A DNA stretch of 64,000 nucleotides from Paucidesulfovibrio longus DSM 6739 (lineage in GTDB: Bacteria > Desulfobacterota > Desulfovibrionia > Desulfovibrionales > Desulfovibrionaceae): assembly GCF_000420485.1 (NCBI RefSeq), contig NZ_ATVA01000012.1, positions 248,001 to 312,000 of the forward strand. Reading direction: 5' to 3'. Shown here piece by piece: positions 3,870 to 16,583 of the stretch. How positions within the stretch are numbered: the stretch's first letter is position 1; each line of letters opens with the position of its first letter. The position numbers and the translations under genes are program-made. The notes beneath the pieces were generated by a model. It saw nothing but the letters and a program-made list of their open reading frames with translations. It was not told the origin of the DNA and ran no database searches.

Positions 3870-4946
3870 TTACCTCAGCTTCAGCGTGGAAAGCGCCACG
3901 AGCGCCAGGAGTATCGACAGAATCCAGAACCGGATGATGATCTTGGATTCCGGGATGCCCTTGAGTTCGAAATGATGGTGCAGCGGAGCCATGCGGAAGA
4001 TGCGCTTGCCTCCGGAGAACCGGAAGTAGCCCACCTGGAGGATGACCGAGACGGTCTCGAACACGAACACGCCGCCCACGATGACCAGCAGCAGCTCCTG
4101 CTTGGCCAGCACGGCCAGGAAGCCGAGCGCGCCGCCCAGGCTCAGGGAGCCCACGTCGCCCATGAAGACCTGGGCCGGGTAGGCGTTGTACCAGAGGAAG
4201 CCGAGGCCCGCGCCCACGAGCGCGCCGCAGAAGACCGTCACTTCGCCCGCACCGGGCACGGGAAGCACGTTCAGGTAGCCCGCCATGCTGGCATGGCCCG
4301 CCACGTAGATGAACAGCGCGAAGCAGGCCGCGTTGACGATGAACGGCCCGATGGCCAGCCCGTCCAGACCGTCCGTGAGGTTCACGGCGTTGGACGTGCC
4401 CACGAGCACGAACACGGCCATGGGCAGGTAGAACCAGCCCAGGTCCGGGTGGAGATTCTTGAAGAAGGGCACGGCCAGGGTGGTGGTATAGTCGGGCATG
4501 GAGAGCAGCCCGGCCACGGCGAGCATGGCCACGAGCATCTGGCCGCTGAACTTGGCCTTGGCCGAAAGCCCCAGGTTCCTGCGCTTGACGACCTTGATGT
4601 AGTCGTCGGCGAAGCCCACCGCGCCGAAGCCCATGTAGACGAAAAGCGTCAGCCAGAGATGGACGTTGGTCAGGTCGCCCCAGAGCAGGGTGCTGATCAT
4701 CACGGACATGCCGATGATCAGCCCGCCCATGGTCGGGGTGCCTTCCTTGCACTGGTGCGCGGGGCCGTCCTCGCGGATGTACTGGCCGCATTTGACCCGC
4801 TTCAGCCAGCGGATCATGCGCGGGCCGAAGAGGATGGAGATGACCAGGGCGGTGAGCAGCGCGTAGATCGACCGGAACGTGATGTACCGGAAGACGTTGA
4901 AGACCGTGATGGTGTCCGAGAGCGGGTAGAGCAGATGGTAGATCAT
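3870..4946 (-). CDS. mraY: Phospho-N-acetylmuramoyl-pentapeptide transferase MraY
   Basis: The protein has 358 residues and about ten membrane helices. It is the inner-membrane enzyme that transfers phospho-MurNAc-pentapeptide to undecaprenyl phosphate, giving lipid I. Family signatures are clear: [12 protein letters not shown] (the DDxxK motif), [27 protein letters not shown] with the catalytic aspartate, and [12 protein letters not shown] with the HHH motif near the C-terminus. The start overlaps the murF stop by 4 bp. The N-terminus [11 protein letters not shown] matches the family. No oddities. Confidence 0.98.
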
Positions 4947-6346: not shown

Positions 6347-7803
6347 CCGAGAACCTCCCGCAGGGCGCGGCCGACGGCTTCCACATCCGAGAAGGGAAGC
6401 TTCTCGTCGCCGATCTGCTGGTAATTTTCATGTCCCTTTCCGGCCACCAGGAGCACGTCGCCGGGCTCCATCAGCCCCACGGCGCGGACGATGGCGGCGT
6501 AGCGGTCCGGCTCCTCGATGGACAGGCGGCAGTCCGCCAGTCCGGGCCGCGCATCCGTAATGATGTCGAGGGGATCTTCGTGACGGGGGTTGTCCGATGT
6601 CAGTACGCCCACGTCGGCGTATTTCGCCACGGCCTCGGCCATGAGCGGGCGCTTGGTCTTGTCGCGGTTGCCGCCGCAGCCGAACAGGGTCAGCAGCCGA
6701 CCCCGCGTCAGCTCGCGCAGGGCGCCGAGCACGTTGACGAGGGCGTCCGGGGTGTGGGCGTAGTCCACGAAGATGTCCAGGCCGTGTTCGTTGGGCACGC
6801 GCTCCAGGCGGCCCGGAACCCCGGCGAAATCCTCCAGCTTGCGCAGGTCGCGCTGGCTGAGGCCCAGGCAGAGGCCCACGGCCTGGGCCGCGAGCAGATT
6901 CTGGGCGTTGTGGCGTCCGATCAGCGGAGAGCTCATTTCCCAGGTCGAGCCCTGGTGGTGCATGCGCAGCGTGAGCCCGGCCGAGGACGAGGTCAGGATT
7001 TCCCCGCGCAGGGCGTTGCAGCCTTCGGGAGCTTCGCTCAGGCCGTAGGAAAGGGCCTGGGGCGCTTCGGCCAGAAGGCGGCGGCCATAGGGATCGTCGT
7101 GGTTGAGCACCCAGGTCTTGTCCGTCTTGGGCCGCGCGCGGAACAGCTCGGCCTTGGCGTTGAAATAGCTTTCCATGTCGCCGTGGTAGTCGAGGTGATC
7201 CTGGGTCACGTTGGTGAGCACGGCCACGTCGAAGTGCAGCCCGGCCACGCGGCGCTGCTCGATGGCGTGGGACGACGCCTCCATGACCACGGCGTCCACG
7301 TCGCTGCGGGCCATGTTGCTGATCAGTTCGTGCAGCGTCCAGCAATCCGGCGTGGTCAGGGTCGCGTCCAGGGAGAATCCGGGCCAGCGGTAGGCCACGG
7401 TGCCCATGAGTCCGGCCTTCAGGCCCACGGCGGCCAGCAGATGCTCGATGATGAAGGCCGTGGTGGTCTTGCCGTTGGTGCCGGTGATGGCCACGAGCTT
7501 GAGGTGCTGGCCGTCCGCGTGGAAATGGGCGCGGGCCAGCTCGCCCAGGGCTTCGGCCGCGTCGGGCCGGACCAGCAGGGCGGCGTCGAGTCCGCGCGTC
7601 CACTGCCCGTCGCGCTGGGTGACGATGTATTTCGCTCCGCGTTCCAGGGCCGCGCGGATGAAGTCCGTTCCGTCGACCTTGCTGCCGGGCAGCGCCACAA
7701 AGACTTCGCCGGGCAGAACCTTGCGCGAGTCCGTGCGGACGCGCAGTCCCCTGGCCACGGCTTCGAGCAGCTCGGACCAGGCCGCTTCTTGGGGTGTGGA
7801 CAT
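6343..7803 (-). CDS. murE: UDP-MurNAc-L-Ala-D-Glu:meso-diaminopimelate ligase MurE
   Basis: The protein has 486 residues. It adds the third amino acid of the stem peptide. The P-loop GTNGKTTT is at about residues 108-115 and the carbamylated-lysine region FNAKAELF near 215-222. The substrate-selecting motif is DNPR (about 404-407), which in this family marks meso-diaminopimelate rather than lysine specificity, so a Gram-negative type peptidoglycan is expected. Start chosen at MSTPQEAAW, preceded by an AAGGCGCAAGAAG stretch; an in-frame ATG 15 codons upstream lacks a good ribosome binding site. The gap to ftsI upstream is only 19 bp. Confidence 0.96.
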   Translation of the reverse strand: MSTPQEAAWSELLEAVARGLRVRTDSRKVLPGEVFVALPGSKVDGTDFIRAALERGAKYIVTQRDGQWTRGLDAALLVRPDAAEALGELARAHFHADGQHLKLVAITGTNGKTTTAFIIEHLLAAVGLKAGLMGTVAYRWPGFSLDATLTTPDCWTLHELISNMARSDVDAVVMEASSHAIEQRRVAGLHFDVAVLTNVTQDHLDYHGDMESYFNAKAELFRARPKTDKTWVLNHDDPYGRRLLAEAPQALSYGLSEAPEGCNALRGEILTSSSAGLTLRMHHQGSTWEMSSPLIGRHNAQNLLAAQAVGLCLGLSQRDLRKLEDFAGVPGRLERVPNEHGLDIFVDYAHTPDALVNVLGALRELTRGRLLTLFGCGGNRDKTKRPLMAEAVAKYADVGVLTSDNPRHEDPLDIITDARPGLADCRLSIEEPDRYAAIVRAVGLMEPGDVLLVAGKGHENYQQIGDEKLPFSDVEAVGRALREVLG

Positions 7804-7822
7804 GTTCTTCTTGCGCCTTTCG

Positions 7823-9811
7823 TTATGAGAGCCAGAGAATAAAAACATCCTGCCCCCCTTCCTTTTCCTGCTGCGGCCATTTCTGGCCCGCGCGGGGTTC
7901 CTGTCCGGTCACGGTCATGCCCTGGCCCTTGAGCACGGGAACGATGCCGCCGCGGGCCAGGATTTCCATGGCGCGGCGAAGGGGCATGCCGGTGACGTTC
8001 GGGGCCGCGCCGCCGACAAAGGCGGCGGTCGGCTCGGGGCCGGGATCCAGGTGGCCCGTGCCCGCGGCCTGCTGGGCCATGGCCGCCTCGGCCACGGCCT
8101 CGCCTTCGGAATCCGGCTCGAAGGCGGCCTCGTTGGGGTCGGGCAGCTTTCCGTAGTAGGCCAGGGTGCGCATGGCCACCTCGCGGACCACGGGTGCGGC
8201 GACCTTGCCGCCCGCGTTGACCGGGCCGGGCTCGTCCACCATGACCACGATGAGCAGTTCCGGATCTTCGCCCGGAATCATGCCCACGAAGGAGGAAAGA
8301 TACTTGTCGCCGTAGCCGCCCTGGGTTTCGGCCTGCTGGGCGGTGCCGGTCTTGCCGGCCATGGTGATGCCGGGAATCCTGGCGAAGCGTCCCGTGCCGT
8401 CCTCCTGGACCACTTCGCGCATCATGCCGAGAACGAGCTTGGCCGAGGATTCGCTGAAGATGCGGCGGGGCGGCGCGTAGTCGGGATCCTGGGGATCGAG
8501 CACGAGCCGCAGGGGCCGCAGCACGCCCTTGTTGCCGATGGTCAAAAAGCCCTGGGCCAGTTGCAGGACCGTGACGCCGATGCCCTGTCCGAACGAGGCC
8601 GCGGCCAGGTCGAACTCGTTCCATTCCTGCACGGGCCGGAGGATGCCGGGCGATTCGGCGGGCAGGTTCAGAGCCGTTTGTTCGCCGAAGCCGAGCCTGC
8701 GCAGGTAGTCGTAGTAGTTCTGGGCCCCCAGGGCCTCGCCGATCTTGGCCGCGCCGATGTTGGACGAATAGCGCAGCACCTTGTTCACGGGCAGCCACTT
8801 GTAGCTGTGGTGGTCGCGGATGACGTGGGGGCCGACCTTGTAGCGTCCGTTCTCGCAGTCAATGAGCTTGTCCGGCGTGATCACGCCCTGGTCCAGGGCC
8901 GCGGCGAAGAGCAGCGGCTTCATGGTCGAGCCGGGCTCCGGCGCGTCCATGGCCGCGCGGTTGCGCCGGTCGTGCGCCGTGGAGCTTCGGTAGGCGTTGG
9001 GATTGAAAAAAGGATAGTTGGCAATGGCCAGGATCTCGCCGGTGGGAATGTCGACCACCAGGGCCACGCCGCCCTTGGCCTCGTATTTTTCCACGGTGTC
9101 GGCCAGGGCCTGCTCTGTCACGTCCTGGATGTGGGTGTCAATGGTCAGGCGCAGATCCTGGCCGTCGATGTCCACTTCGCGTCCCTGGGCGTCGAGGTAG
9201 AGCCTGCGGCCGGAGGCGTCCCGCAGCTTGACCTGCTCGGCCTTGCCCCCGGCGAGCCGGGTTTCGTAGGAGCGCTCCAGCCCTTCCAGTCCCTTGCCGT
9301 CGATGTTCACGAAGCCGAGAAGCTGCCCGGCCAGCCTGCCCTGGGGGTAGAGCCGGACGTGCTCGCTGGTGAGGTAGACGCCGGGAAGGTCTTCGCGGTC
9401 GAGGGCCGCGGCCTCGCGGTCCATGACCTGCCGCTTGACCCAGACGAAGTTCTTGCGCGAGGCGAGATCCTTGTCCACCTCGGCGCGGGGCATGTGCAGC
9501 AGGTCGGAGAGGGCCTTGGCCGTGGCGGCGCGGTCCTGAATCTCCAGGGGCCGGAGGTAGACGGACTTGGCTTCCACGCTGGTGGCGAGCAGTTCGCCGT
9601 CGCGGGCCAGGATGCGTCCGCGCCGTCCGCGCTCGAATTCGGTGGAGAGGGTCTGCTTGGCGGCGAGGCGTTCGAGCTGGGGGCCCTGGTAGAGCTGAAT
9701 CCACCCGGTCCTGACCCAGAGCGCGGCCCAGACGAGAGCGAACAGCACACCCGCCAGAACCAGCTTGGTGCTGCTGGGGCCGGGTCGCTTGTGCGTTCTC
9801 TTCGCTCTCAT
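7823..9811 (-). CDS. ftsI: Septal penicillin-binding protein, class B transpeptidase with C-terminal PASTA domain (FtsI/PBP3-like)
   Basis: The protein has 662 residues. A basic N-terminus is followed by one membrane helix (about 16-34), a pedestal domain and a periplasmic transpeptidase domain that cross-links septal peptidoglycan. Active-site motifs are all present: STMK (Ser295-Lys298), SSN (349-351) and KTGT (487-490). The last 60 residues (NVTGMPLRRAMEILARGG onward) look like a PASTA domain, which typical E. coli FtsI lacks but many other bacteria have (Spo VD/PBP2x-like layout). Start MRAKRTHKR follows AAGGAAGC. It lies between ftsL and murE, its classic place in the dcw cluster. Confidence 0.94.
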   Translation of the reverse strand: MRAKRTHKRPGPSSTKLVLAGVLFALVWAALWVRTGWIQLYQGPQLERLAAKQTLSTEFERGRRGRILARDGELLATSVEAKSVYLRPLEIQDRAATAKALSDLLHMPRAEVDKDLASRKNFVWVKRQVMDREAAALDREDLPGVYLTSEHVRLYPQGRLAGQLLGFVNIDGKGLEGLERSYETRLAGGKAEQVKLRDASGRRLYLDAQGREVDIDGQDLRLTIDTHIQDVTEQALADTVEKYEAKGGVALVVDIPTGEILAIANYPFFNPNAYRSSTAHDRRNRAAMDAPEPGSTMKPLLFAAALDQGVITPDKLIDCENGRYKVGPHVIRDHHSYKWLPVNKVLRYSSNIGAAKIGEALGAQNYYDYLRRLGFGEQTALNLPAESPGILRPVQEWNEFDLAAASFGQGIGVTVLQLAQGFLTIGNKGVLRPLRLVLDPQDPDYAPPRRIFSESSAKLVLGMMREVVQEDGTGRFARIPGITMAGKTGTAQQAETQGGYGDKYLSSFVGMIPGEDPELLIVVMVDEPGPVNAGGKVAAPVVREVAMRTLAYYGKLPDPNEAAFEPDSEGEAVAEAAMAQQAAGTGHLDPGPEPTAAFVGGAAPNVTGMPLRRAMEILARGGIVPVLKGQGMTVTGQEPRAGQKWPQQEKEGGQDVFILWLS

Positions 9812-13317: not shown

Positions 13318-14331
13318 ATGGCCAAGCCGAAAAGCGACGTTCCCGACGGGCTGAACGAGGAATACTACCAGGTCAATCAGGACATCCTCGGCAGCTTCAA
13401 CAAGTTCCGCCCGCCCCTGGACCTCTTCCGGCTCAAGGAGGACGTTGTCCGCCTGCTCCCTTATTACAAGGTGGGCGGCCGGCTGACCACGCAGCAGGCA
13501 GAGGAGCTGCCCGAGCTGACCAAGCAGGGCCTGATCTTCGTCTCGCGCAAGGACCACGCGGTCTACGTCAAGCACATCAGCTATCAGCTCGACCTCGTGC
13601 TCATCGACAAGAACCTGCACGAGCGGGAGATCGCGGACATCTTCACCCAGGCCCTGACCCGGCGCATGGAGGAGTTTCTGGACCAGCCGGTCAAGCCGGT
13701 CTTCGAGAAGCTCTACGCCGACCTGATGGTGCTTACCGAGTACCTCATCTTCGACATCCACCGCGTGCGCGCGCTGCTGCGGCGTCTGCACAAGGAACAT
13801 TCCCTGGCCAAGCACAGCTTCAACTGCGGAGTGGCCGGGCTCGCGCTCTACGGCTTCATCAATTCGAACAACTTCGAGGAGGGCGGGGTCAAGCGCACCT
13901 TCTTCGACCGCCTGACCCTGGGCCTGTTCCTGCACGACATGGGCATGAGCAAGGTGCCCAAGTTCATCCTGGACAAGGACAAGCCGCTGACCACGGACGA
14001 GCGCAACAAGATTCTCCAGCATCCCATGCACGGGGTGGAGATGCTCGCCAAGCTGGACATCAAGCATCCGGAACTGGAGCAGTGCGTTCTGGAACATCAC
14101 GAACGGCTCACGGGTTCCGGATATCCGCAGAAGAAGAACGCGGACAACATCACCCAGATCGGGCGCATCTGCGGCCTGGTGGATTCCTGGTGCGCCATGA
14201 CCACCAAGCGCGTCTACGCCGAAGCCATGGAGCCCATGGCGGCCCTGCGCGCGCTCATGGAAGATTCCGGCTACGACCGCCAGCTGGGCCAGCAGATGCA
14301 GCTCATGCTCGTGGAACGCATGAAGCACTAG
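13318..14331 (+). CDS. HD-GYP-like signalling protein with altered metal-site motif
   Basis: The protein has 337 residues and no membrane helix. The C-terminal half (about 150-335) is an HD-GYP domain: HDMGM (206-210), QHPMHG (234-239), EHHERLTGSGYP (259-270) and VDSWCAMTT. HD-GYP domains normally hydrolyse cyclic di-GMP. Here the lysine of the usual HDxGK is methionine, and the residues after GYP differ from the common pattern, so activity is uncertain while HD, HH and GYP remain. The N-terminal 140 residues are unrecognised. It begins one base after pyk, an unusual partner, and is followed by a strong terminator. Confidence 0.8.
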   Translation: MAKPKSDVPDGLNEEYYQVNQDILGSFNKFRPPLDLFRLKEDVVRLLPYYKVGGRLTTQQAEELPELTKQGLIFVSRKDHAVYVKHISYQLDLVLIDKNLHEREIADIFTQALTRRMEEFLDQPVKPVFEKLYADLMVLTEYLIFDIHRVRALLRRLHKEHSLAKHSFNCGVAGLALYGFINSNNFEEGGVKRTFFDRLTLGLFLHDMGMSKVPKFILDKDKPLTTDERNKILQHPMHGVEMLAKLDIKHPELEQCVLEHHERLTGSGYPQKKNADNITQIGRICGLVDSWCAMTTKRVYAEAMEPMAALRALMEDSGYDRQLGQQMQLMLVERMKH

Positions 14332-14358
14332 CCGCCGCGGCCAGGCCGAAGCAAATGA

Positions 14359-14399
14359 CCGCCCGCGCACCCGGAAGGATGCGCGGGCGGTTCGCTTTT
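14359..14399 (+). terminator. Rho-independent terminator after the pyk-HD-GYP unit
   Basis: An 11-bp perfect GC-rich stem (14359-14369 with 14380-14390) with a 10-nt loop is followed by TTCGCTTTT. It lies 27 bp after the HD-GYP stop and just before the end of the convergent gene at 14420, so it closes the plus-strand unit. Confidence 0.85.
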
Positions 14400-14419
14400 G
14401 CCCGGAGCGGGGGAACGCC

Positions 14420-14773
14420 TCAGGGCATGCACGATTCGGGCGGAACCTCGATTTCCATGTCAAAACCGTGTCCCATGCCCGCATCGACCTTTACCCGCCA
14501 CACGCCGGGCCGGTCCGGCAGGAACGCGAATCTTCCCCGGGCGTCGGTGCGTCCGTTCTGGAATTCCGTGTCCCCGCCGCCCGGAGCGTAGATCAGCACC
14601 TGGGCGAAGCTCGCGGTCGTGCCGTCGGAAAAGGCCGTTTCGATCACCGTGGCCGTCTGCTCGTAGTGAATCCTGCGGATGCCGTGCGCCGAGGCCAGGG
14701 CCGCATGGCCCAGTCCGAGAAGGAGCAGCGCCGCGAGCACCCCCAGCGCGGTTTTCCGAACCTCTCGCGTCAT
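14420..14773 (-). CDS. Small secreted protein, NikL-like / carboxypeptidase-regulatory-like fold
   Basis: The protein has 117 residues with a signal peptide (hydrophobic stretch about 9-24, cleavage near ALASAHG). The mature part (about 35-115) has the look of a single beta-sandwich: TATVIETAFSDGTTASFAQV, TDARGRFAFLPDRPGVW, then VKVDAGMG. The G-x-F-x-F-xP turn is typical of carboxypeptidase-regulatory-like and NikL-type domains. The mature N-terminus begins with a histidine (HGIRRIHYE). It starts immediately after the stop of the DUF4198 gene (0 bp), so the two products very likely act together in the periplasm. A role in metal handling is inferred from the partner and the upstream sites only. 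Confidence 0.68.
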   Translation of the reverse strand: MTREVRKTALGVLAALLLLGLGHAALASAHGIRRIHYEQTATVIETAFSDGTTASFAQVLIYAPGGGDTEFQNGRTDARGRFAFLPDRPGVWRVKVDAGMGHGFDMEIEVPPESCMP

Positions 14774-15556
14774 TTAGCGCACCTCGAAGACCAGCACGGC
14801 GCGCATGGCGATGCCGTCGTAGTCCGCGGTGGGCTTGTCGATCTTGTGCTGGATGCGGACCATCCAGACTCCGGGCGCCGTGATCTTGACCTTGGCCGTG
14901 CCGTCGTCGCCCGGTTCCGTGGAGTAGGCGAAGGTCATGGTTTCCAGGGAAAAGCCGTCGTAGGTGGCCAGAACGTTTTCCGGCGCAAAGGGCTTGCCGT
15001 CGTAGAGGAACTTGAAGCCGATCTCGTCGCCCACGCGCGCCGCGGTCGGGTCGGACAGGGGCACGATTTCGAGCTTCTGGCCGAGCACGCGGCTCCAGCC
15101 GTCGTCGCCCTTGCCCACGGTGATCAGGGTCTTGGCGAATTTCTCATAGAGATTGCTGGAAATGACGCCCTTCTGGCCCTTTTTGGAGCCTTCCACCCAG
15201 CCCGCGGTGGTCTGGGTCCAGACGATGCCCTCGCGGTCGCCCGCCAGGATGGCCGTGCCCTCGCGCGTCGGGGCGAACTGGCCGTCCAGGGTCAGCAGGG
15301 CCGGGTTGGGAGCCACGCTCAGCGGAGCGGACTTCTTGCCTTCCACCAACGACAGCTTGACGTGGTCCACGGGCTCGACTTCCTCGGAAATCATCATCAC
15401 GTGGGACGAAACCACGGAGAAGGGCACGGTTTCGCCTTTTTTCACGGTGAGCTTGACCGGCTTGAGCAGGAATTCGTGGGCCTGCGCCGGAACCGCCAGG
15501 GCCAGGACGGCCAGGGCGAGCAGGAGCGGCAGGAACGTGCGCGGATACGATTTCAT
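14774..15556 (-). CDS. DUF4198 periplasmic protein (NikK-like)
   Basis: The protein has 260 residues with a clear signal peptide (about 8-26, cleavage after AQA). The mature protein starts HEFLLKP, the usual beginning of DUF4198 proteins, in which the N-terminal histidine is thought to bind metal. The C-terminal part (GEIGFKFLYDGKP region to ITAPGVWMVRIQHKIDK) matches the family's repeated beta domain. DUF4198 includes NikK, found with nickel/cobalt ECF-type transporters in sulfate reducers; no such transporter is next to this pair. The ribosome binding site GGAGGT is strong. A NikR-like double half-site overlaps its promoter. Nickel association is inferred. Confidence 0.8.
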   Translation of the reverse strand: MKSYPRTFLPLLLALAVLALAVPAQAHEFLLKPVKLTVKKGETVPFSVVSSHVMMISEEVEPVDHVKLSLVEGKKSAPLSVAPNPALLTLDGQFAPTREGTAILAGDREGIVWTQTTAGWVEGSKKGQKGVISSNLYEKFAKTLITVGKGDDGWSRVLGQKLEIVPLSDPTAARVGDEIGFKFLYDGKPFAPENVLATYDGFSLETMTFAYSTEPGDDGTAKVKITAPGVWMVRIQHKIDKPTADYDGIAMRAVLVFEVR

Positions 15557-15572
15557 GGTTTACCTCCGTTTT

Positions 15573-15630
15573 GTGTTATCAAGATGATTTTTGTGTTACG
15601 AAAGCTAGAAGCGTTTCGAGATCGTGTCAA
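15573..15630 (-). promoter_or_regulatory. Promoter of the DUF4198 pair with NikR-like half-sites
   Basis: On the minus strand TTGACA (15625-15630) and TAGCTT (15602-15607) are separated by 17 bp, a good sigma-70 promoter. Directly downstream, at the expected start of transcription, lie GTAACAC (15593-15599) and ATAACAC (15573-15579), 20 bp apart (13-bp gap). The heptamer is the half-site I recall for NikR in deltaproteobacteria, with a 13-14 bp gap, but here the two copies are in direct rather than inverted order. Overlap with the start site suggests repression. Confidence 0.6.
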
Positions 15631-15773
15631 TAAAAAATAAAAAGTGCTACCCATGCAGTAGGAAATGGACGCTCCGCCGAAAGAGGCGCGCAGGACGCAA
15701 TAGCCGGACCGCTCCCATTCCGCGCATTCCGGGCAGGGCTTGACGAAACCGGTCTCCGCACGCATGGAAGGGC

Positions 15774-16583
15774 ATGTGCGCAAACCAACCAACGCTCCGG
15801 CGCTGTGCCCGTGTCCTGTGGCTTTTGCCGCTTTTGCTCCTGCTCGCCTCTCCGGCGCTCGCCGGGTTGAAGCGGACCTACCCATACGGCCCCGGCGAAA
15901 AGTTCACCTATGAAATCTATTGGACCGTGGTCTACGCGGGCCAGGCCACGCTGGAAATCATGCCGGACACCGAGATCCAGGGGGTGCCCGCGCGCCACTT
16001 TCACGCCGAGGCGCGCACGTCGGACTTCATCGATTCCTTCTACAAGGTGCGCGACACCATCGATTCCTGGACGGACATGGCCGTGGACCGCACGCTCAGG
16101 TTCGAGCAGCGCCAGCGCGAGGGCGACTACGAGAAGGACACCCTGCTCAGCTTCGACTGGCAGGGCATGACCCTGGAAAATCGCGGCATCCAGGGCTTTA
16201 AGAACACCCTGGACCTGCCCGGCGACGTGCTCGATTCCCTGTCCGTGCTCTTCCATTTCCGCACGCACGGACTCTTTCAGGACCGGGTCATCAGCGGACT
16301 GGTCACGGACGGGCGCAAGATCGTGCCCGGCTCCGGCCGGGTGGTGGGGCGCGAAACCATAGAAACGCCCTTCGGCGACCTGGATTGCTTCCGGGTCGAG
16401 CCGGACACCAGGGACATCGGCGGGGTCTTCAAGAAAAGCGACGACGCCCGCATCGAGATGTGGTTCACGGCGGACGAGCGGCGCATTCCCGTGCGCATCC
16501 GCAGCCAGGTGGCGGTGGGGCATTTTTCGCTGGAGCTGGTGGACGTGCGGGGAGTGCCCGGTTTTGGGCAAGGCGGGAAATAA
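15774..16583 (+). CDS. DUF3108 family exported protein
   Basis: The protein has 269 residues with a signal peptide (hydrophobic 14-29, cleavage near ALAG). The mature protein fits the DUF3108 family: YPYGPGEKFTYEIYW near the start, then DTIDSWTDMAVDRTLRFEQ, VLSVLF-like hydrophobic strands and EMWFTADERRIPVRIRSQV near the end. The function of DUF3108 proteins is not established; they are thought to be periplasmic beta-rich proteins. A purine run (GGAAGGG) abuts the ATG more closely than usual, so the start is somewhat uncertain. It faces the small gene 16605-16910 tail to tail. Confidence 0.75.
   Translation: MCANQPTLRRCARVLWLLPLLLLLASPALAGLKRTYPYGPGEKFTYEIYWTVVYAGQATLEIMPDTEIQGVPARHFHAEARTSDFIDSFYKVRDTIDSWTDMAVDRTLRFEQRQREGDYEKDTLLSFDWQGMTLENRGIQGFKNTLDLPGDVLDSLSVLFHFRTHGLFQDRVISGLVTDGRKIVPGSGRVVGRETIETPFGDLDCFRVEPDTRDIGGVFKKSDDARIEMWFTADERRIPVRIRSQVAVGHFSLELVDVRGVPGFGQGGK

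Follow-up and report, generated by a model that had tools for sequence, protein, structure and literature searches.

A putative NikR operator of direct-repeat half-sites upstream of a stand-alone nikK/nikL-like gene pair in Paucidesulfovibrio longus

The two-gene unit and its promoter region

The window analysed here comprises 64,000 nucleotides of Paucidesulfovibrio longus DSM 6739 (contig NZ_ATVA01000012.1, positions 248,001 to 312,000). On its reverse strand lie two adjoining ORFs encoding NikK and a small NikL-like protein (Table 1). The gap between the nikK stop and the nikL-like start is 0 bp, which bears out an initial sequence-only reading of the region as a unit of two exported proteins; export of both is predicted by eye. 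A terminator-like hairpin follows the unit. Since shuffled sequences averaged 1.8 such hairpins against the single one found, this match alone is not significant. The flanking genes, for an HD-domain protein and a DUF3108 protein, are not evidently related to metals. The DUF3108 gene (window 15774-16583) is divergently oriented and shares its 217-bp intergenic region with the putative operators described below.

Table 1. Features of the nikK/nikL-like locus in window coordinates
Feature	Position	Strand	Remarks
nikK, exported DUF4198 protein, 260 aa	14774..15556	(-)	DUF4198 profile match and predicted fold
nikL-like gene, exported 117-aa protein	14420..14773	(-)	partial NF058648 match, N-terminal half of NikL only
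Terminator-like hairpin 3' of nikL-like gene	14358..14391	(-)	15 pairs, 12 G-C
Sigma-70-like promoter TTGACA-N17-TAGCTT	15602..15630	(-)	read by eye
NikR-type half-site GTGTTAT	15573..15579		direct repeat of the 15593 site, 20 bp away
NikR-type half-site GTGTTAC (gene strand GTAACAC)	15593..15599		scored putative half-site
Third half-site GTGCTAC	15644..15650		score 8.5; 51 bp from the 15593 half-site
Fourth half-site GTGTCAA, weak	15624..15630		score 4.1; overlaps the -35 hexamer

The promoter proposed in the sequence-only reading can indeed be read by eye, whereas a sigma-70 scan at its own thresholds listed no promoter in 14300-15780. The two NikR-type heptamers 13 bp apart that had been noted at the same place are present as well. 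However, they do not show the inverted or everted order published for deltaproteobacterial sites: the forward strand reads GTGTTAT-N13-GTGTTAC, a direct repeat within a 10-nt sequence that recurs exactly at a distance of 20 bp. The pattern RTRNYAY-N13-RTRNYAY occurs once in the 64-kb window, compared to a mean of 0.04 in shuffled sequences (one occurrence in 4 of 100 shuffles). In core sequence and in the distance of its half-sites, which is 20-21 bp in NikR operators, this dyad corresponds to such an operator and is a putative operator judged by sequence. With two further half-sites at 15624 and 15644, which had escaped the first reading, the promoter probably carries four. The role of the weak 15624 box is uncertain because it coincides with the -35 hexamer TTGACA.

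The NikK and NikL-like proteins

NikK matched the DUF4198 profile with 138.3 bits (cut-off 34), in agreement with its earlier identification. Signal peptides and cleavage sites of both proteins were judged by eye and by the AxA motif only. For NikK, the predicted signal peptide ends with VPAQA and the mature protein would start with HEF, making His27 the first mature residue. His27 and His52 (mature 1 and 26) were invariant in 23 sequences and likewise in 28 sequences. The NikL-like protein would start with HGI after a predicted signal peptide ending in ALASA. Hence, a mature N-terminal His is predicted for both proteins and not, as first read, for the DUF4198 protein only. Window NikK orthologues with an E value of 2e-27 or better were found in 23 of 99 family genomes, the own genome included.

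An AlphaFold2 model of NikK built from 28 sequences had a mean pLDDT of 91.7. Its best fold match was Zcp (Z 25-26 over 215-222 residues), and Ni-bound IsDUF4198 (PDB 9gcb) was matched with Z 22.1, model residues 27-260 aligning with chain residues 1-213. After these, the next chain reached only Z 5.9. NikK thus possesses the DUF4198 domain and the fold of its family and, given the predicted cleavage site, an N-terminal His together with a second conserved His. In IsDUF4198 the nickel ligands are the N-terminal His and His18, with a Kd of 18 nM (PMC12537917). Both proteins are alike in fold and in the mature N-terminal His (predicted here), but share about 20% identity, and His52 is a candidate counterpart of His18, the profile alignments ending short of the N-terminus and the structural comparison giving alignment ranges only. 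The nearest fold, Zcp (PDB 9mhi to 9mhn), has been solved with Zn, Cu and Co, and the title of a mutant structure names H29, H31 and H142; a paper on these structures was not found in our literature search.

The second protein matched NF058648 (NikL), a nickel/cobalt ECF family, with 50.1 bits at profile positions 3-93 of 180. It is called NikL-like because the coverage is partial and the score lies below the cut-off of 100; a full-length match above the cut-off, as expected of NikL, was not obtained for the window protein. In its position directly adjoining nikK the gene agrees with nikL. A simple search found NikL downstream of nikK in 35 of the 42 non-redundant orthologue loci. A C-terminal hydrophobic segment, recognized by eye, was present in 33 of these 35 relatives and missing only in the window protein and in the copy of a congener (G013). 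Such an anchorless NikL offers a natural test of the role of the membrane segment.

The dispersed nickel system

The search for nikR suggested by the sequence-only reading yielded one NikR_C match in the own genome, a NikR with 220.8 bits (cut-off 105 for NF003381). Its proposal that a distant nickel transporter might be served also found support. The genome encodes one CbiM/NikM (279.1 bits, cut-off 173), which lies together with a nikL at G000:C12:374386 and some 111 kb from nikKL, and a cbiQ/cbiO pair is found on another contig (L055 5431-7586, G000:C16). The window nikK therefore does not share an operon with nikM, nikQ and nikO. In the nikM region NikL is encoded in two pieces by neighbouring genes (L035 6690-7340, G000:C12), which match NF058648 positions 2-97 and 118-180, each below the cut-off. 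The cbiO-type ATPase has a His-rich tail, and the cbiQ/cbiO pair adjoins an HDIG-domain gene and oppD/oppF-like ATPase genes.

Of the 42 genomes from which the non-redundant promoters were taken, 37 gave a NikR match (the own genome, 21 of 22 and 15 of 19). Since NikR is encoded by 84 of the 99 family genomes, this co-occurrence is weak and non-discriminating evidence. NikM was present in all 34 genomes searched among the 41 besides the own, and in the own genome.

The missing anchor of the NikL proteins of the window and of G013, as well as the separate positions of nikKL, nikM and the nikQO-like genes, would also fit a pair that is regulated by nickel but independent of an importer and acts as a free periplasmic store or scavenger. 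Orphan NikK and NikL are known from organisms without NikMQO (PMC2667541). We consider this role unlikely. NikM was present in all 34 genomes searched, the own nikM carries a dyad (see below), and NikL is likewise divided at the nikM locus, its membrane half being a separate gene there, so that the missing anchor need not mean independence.

Dyads upstream of nikK orthologues

Conservation of the heptamers was assessed in 200 bp upstream of 42 non-redundant nikK orthologues, which remained from 50 after removal of 8 near-duplicates. Pairs of half-sites with at most two mismatches to GTAACAC/GTGTTAC were counted in any orientation. Dyads at 20 bp were found in 19 of the 42 promoters and at 20-21 bp in 20, compared to a mean of 1.55 and a maximum of 5 for 51 other spacings between 8 and 60 bp and a mean of 0.04 in shuffled sequences. 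The heptamers first noted in the window are thus conserved upstream of orthologues, albeit in less than half of the set: 22 promoters, many of them from NikR-bearing genomes, had no good dyad, and several of these keep one half-site.

The dyads at 20 bp were direct in 13 cases, everted in 3 and inverted in 3; direct pairs at other spacings averaged 0.57 (maximum 3). As ties are labelled by the first template, this assignment can favour direct repeats (e.g. L078). If the three central bases were ignored, 23 of 42 promoters had a pair at 20 bp (other spacings: mean 4.04, maximum 9). The half-site centres were of the form RnY in 64 of 76 cases at 20-21 bp versus 235 of 428 at other spacings. Because RnY centres concentrate at 20-21 bp, the symmetric word GTRNYAC describes the half-site best. 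Ribbon-helix-helix dimers have two-fold symmetry themselves, and half-site orientation therefore need not matter. The nikK promoter in L067 (Desulfocapsaceae; gene start at 3983) combines two perfect 20-bp dyads, one inverted and one everted.

Dyads at hydA, nikM and elsewhere in the genome

A second, independent set comprised 21 promoters of the [FeFe]-hydrogenase gene hydA; 9 of 30 loci were left out as the gene start was not found by motif search. A dyad at 20 bp was present in 11 of the 21 promoters, with a mean of 0.45 for other spacings, the largest count among which was 4, at 51 bp. Eight of the dyads were direct, 2 inverted and 1 everted, making the direct order the commonest in both sets. 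The hydAB dyad of the own genome is direct as well. The 2004 listing of NikR sites includes among hydAB genes only that of D. desulfuricans (PMC545781).

Upstream of the own nikM the dyad GTGTTAC-N13-TTGACAC is inverted with one weak half. Over-threshold dyads within 1500 nt were found at 8 of 31 nikM loci, the own included, 7 at 20 bp and 1 at 21 bp; this set was left out of the main counts because operons may begin farther away. In some of the genomes that have just one NikR match, the orders at nikK and nikM differ, namely inverted and direct in G001 and in G035, and direct and everted in G051, where the everted nikM site is weak and below threshold. An everted dyad (4734-4760) is also located about 107 bp upstream of the small-subunit gene of a [NiFe]-hydrogenase operon (L054 4867-7580, G000:C11).

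In the 149 kb examined in total, 5 over-threshold dyads were counted (window, nikM, hydAB, [NiFe]-hydrogenase and a TonB-dependent receptor gene), while 13 control spacings gave 3 altogether. This count is descriptive only because the loci were partly chosen for carrying such sites. The genome scan for nikM, nikR and the heptamer pair suggested at the outset located both genes, but the pair itself was not enriched: a strict scan found no match in the own genome, and a relaxed one found 13 places versus 25 for the reversed control. The pattern alone therefore cannot call sites. The loci of nikR (L036) and of cbiQ/cbiO (L055) were free of over-threshold dyads. A second DUF4198 gene (C13) was set aside, its 11-kb locus L037 containing no over-threshold dyad. 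At Rfam gathering score no riboswitch was detected in L035, L037, L053 and L055, where the sole match was an SRP RNA.

That the pair serves zinc, iron or cobalt under another regulator owning the heptamers appears very improbable from these data. The fold similarity to Zcp, which was solved with Zn, Cu or Co, would suit such a role, and DUF4198 genes are known from a list for a zur mutant and from PepSY/DUF2271 clusters that respond to iron (PMC4176598, PMC11870441, PMC8238504). One genome listed as 99% complete, G026, has half-site dyads in front of both nikK and nikM (L022, L142) and yet no NikR match, and two fragmentary genomes likewise have half-sites without a NikR match. In contrast, the same dyad precedes the own nikM and 11 of 21 hydA promoters, its spacing and core equal those of an established NikR dyad (PMC5385501), and NikL belongs to a nickel/cobalt family. 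PepSY and DUF2271 were not matched in the 4 window proteins scanned.

Indications of a double operator

The window half-sites at 15573, 15593, 15624 and 15644 form an array with distances of 20, 31 and 20 bp. The same 20-31-20 array was found at the own hydAB (L053 7063-7140, gene 7193-8440, G000:C17), with half-sites at 7063, 7083, 7114 and 7134. At both promoters the start-proximal dyad is the stronger one. Among 63 promoters, 7 had half-site pairs at 51 bp and 6 had them at 31 bp, compared to a mean of 0.39 for spacings of 22-99 bp except 50-52. The half-site score matrix was built from the sites of the nikK set with L005 and L006 left out; in this spacing test the nikK set is therefore not independent of the matrix, in contrast to the hydA set. 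The same matrix underlies the threshold counts at the nikM loci and in the 149 kb. Local shuffling, evaluated at a threshold chosen post hoc, produced a second dyad at a distance of exactly 51 bp with a frequency of about 5e-5 for the window and in 0 of 20000 shuffles for hydAB.

Alternatively, only one dyad may be real, the upstream half-sites resulting from chance and the -35 box and the array being non-functional. The low score of the 15624 box and its coincidence with TTGACA agree with this, as does the restriction of 51-bp pairs to 7 of 63 promoters. Against it stand the identical array in the same genome, the excess of 51-bp and 31-bp pairs over the control mean and, with the reservation on its threshold, the rarity of such a second dyad in shuffles. 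A single dyad is thus a serious alternative, though in our judgement the less probable one.

Comparison with known systems

The combination found here is of an already known kind. For Desulfovibrio vulgaris, nikK/nikL standing alone under NikR were predicted as early as 2004 (PMC545781), and orphan NikK/NikL have been described (PMC2667541). The sequence-only reading had correctly seen the pair standing apart from the NikMNQO genes with which its families are known to occur, but with the D. vulgaris gene a nikK that stands alone behind a NikR site was already on record. D. vulgaris (PMC545781) and the window have in common that nikK/nikL are separate from nikMQO and that NikR-type heptamers with a 13-bp spacer lie upstream of nikK. 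Deltaproteobacterial NikR sites were described as inverted or 'reversed', the site preceding the only nikK of D. vulgaris being an example of the latter (PMC545781). That site is everted and single (GTgACAC-N13-GTGTaAC), whereas the window has a direct repeat, probably doubled. The NikK and NikL families of the NikKMLQO nickel ECF transporter (PMC2667541), as well as NikM and CbiQ/CbiO-type genes, also occur in the own genome. In contrast to that transporter, the own genes are dispersed, and the window NikL-like protein represents only the N-terminal half below the family cut-off.

The NikR consensus known from footprints in H. pylori is a pentamer dyad, compared with TRWYA, 20 nt from centre to centre, and is read as being bound by one tetramer over two helical turns (PMC5385501). 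The window dyad resembles it in that the cores are 15 nt apart and the centres 20 bp, with TRNYA as the core of GTRNYAC. Differences are the strong conservation of the flanking G and C here and the possible presence of two dyads 51 bp apart. A literature search that reached few subscription papers gave no description of a direct-repeat, orientation-free and sometimes doubled operator, or of an anchorless NikL.

Proposed role and regulation

Our results support the reading of the pair as nickel-related. Of the two outcomes that the sequence-only reading had named as speaking against nickel control, a genome devoid of nikR and orthologues devoid of upstream heptamers, neither was obtained. We regard it as likely that nikK-nikL is a stand-alone unit of a dispersed nickel-uptake regulon under putative NikR control, supplying a separately encoded NikM and NikQO-like transporter. 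With sufficient nickel, Ni-NikR would bind the symmetric half-sites 20 bp apart at the nikKL promoter and repress it, one tetramer sitting near +1 and a second probably 51 bp upstream over the -35 region. The likely NikR sites imply that the cell probably makes the pair under nickel shortage. NikK and the anchorless NikL would then be produced and exported, both presenting a mature N-terminal His, and NikK may hold Ni2+ by His1 and the second conserved His. The two proteins would finally hand nickel to the transporter.

It further seems rather probable, though with less confidence, that NikR of this family reads an orientation-free code consisting of GTRNYAC half-sites at a 20-bp step in direct, inverted or everted order, and that some promoters (nikKL, hydAB) carry two dyads that lie 51 bp apart, one for each of two tetramers. 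As direct repeats are the commonest, predictions based on palindromes would miss many sites, including a widespread control of [FeFe]-hydrogenase. An orphan DUF4198/NikL-like pair would be tied to nickel, and a simple rule would apply to NikR operators missed by palindrome searches. If so, the NikR regulon of the family, comprising nickel import, the choice between [FeFe]- and [NiFe]-hydrogenase and an outer-membrane receptor, could be redrawn from sequence.

Nickel perhaps first enters via the TonB-dependent receptor whose gene (L053 10004-12034, G000:C17) also carries a dyad and which is a candidate nickel receptor by this sequence feature. Its dyad (9659-9685) is inverted and lies about 320-345 bp upstream. 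Beyond the receptor gene, TonB/ExbB/ExbD-like genes are encoded on the opposite strand.
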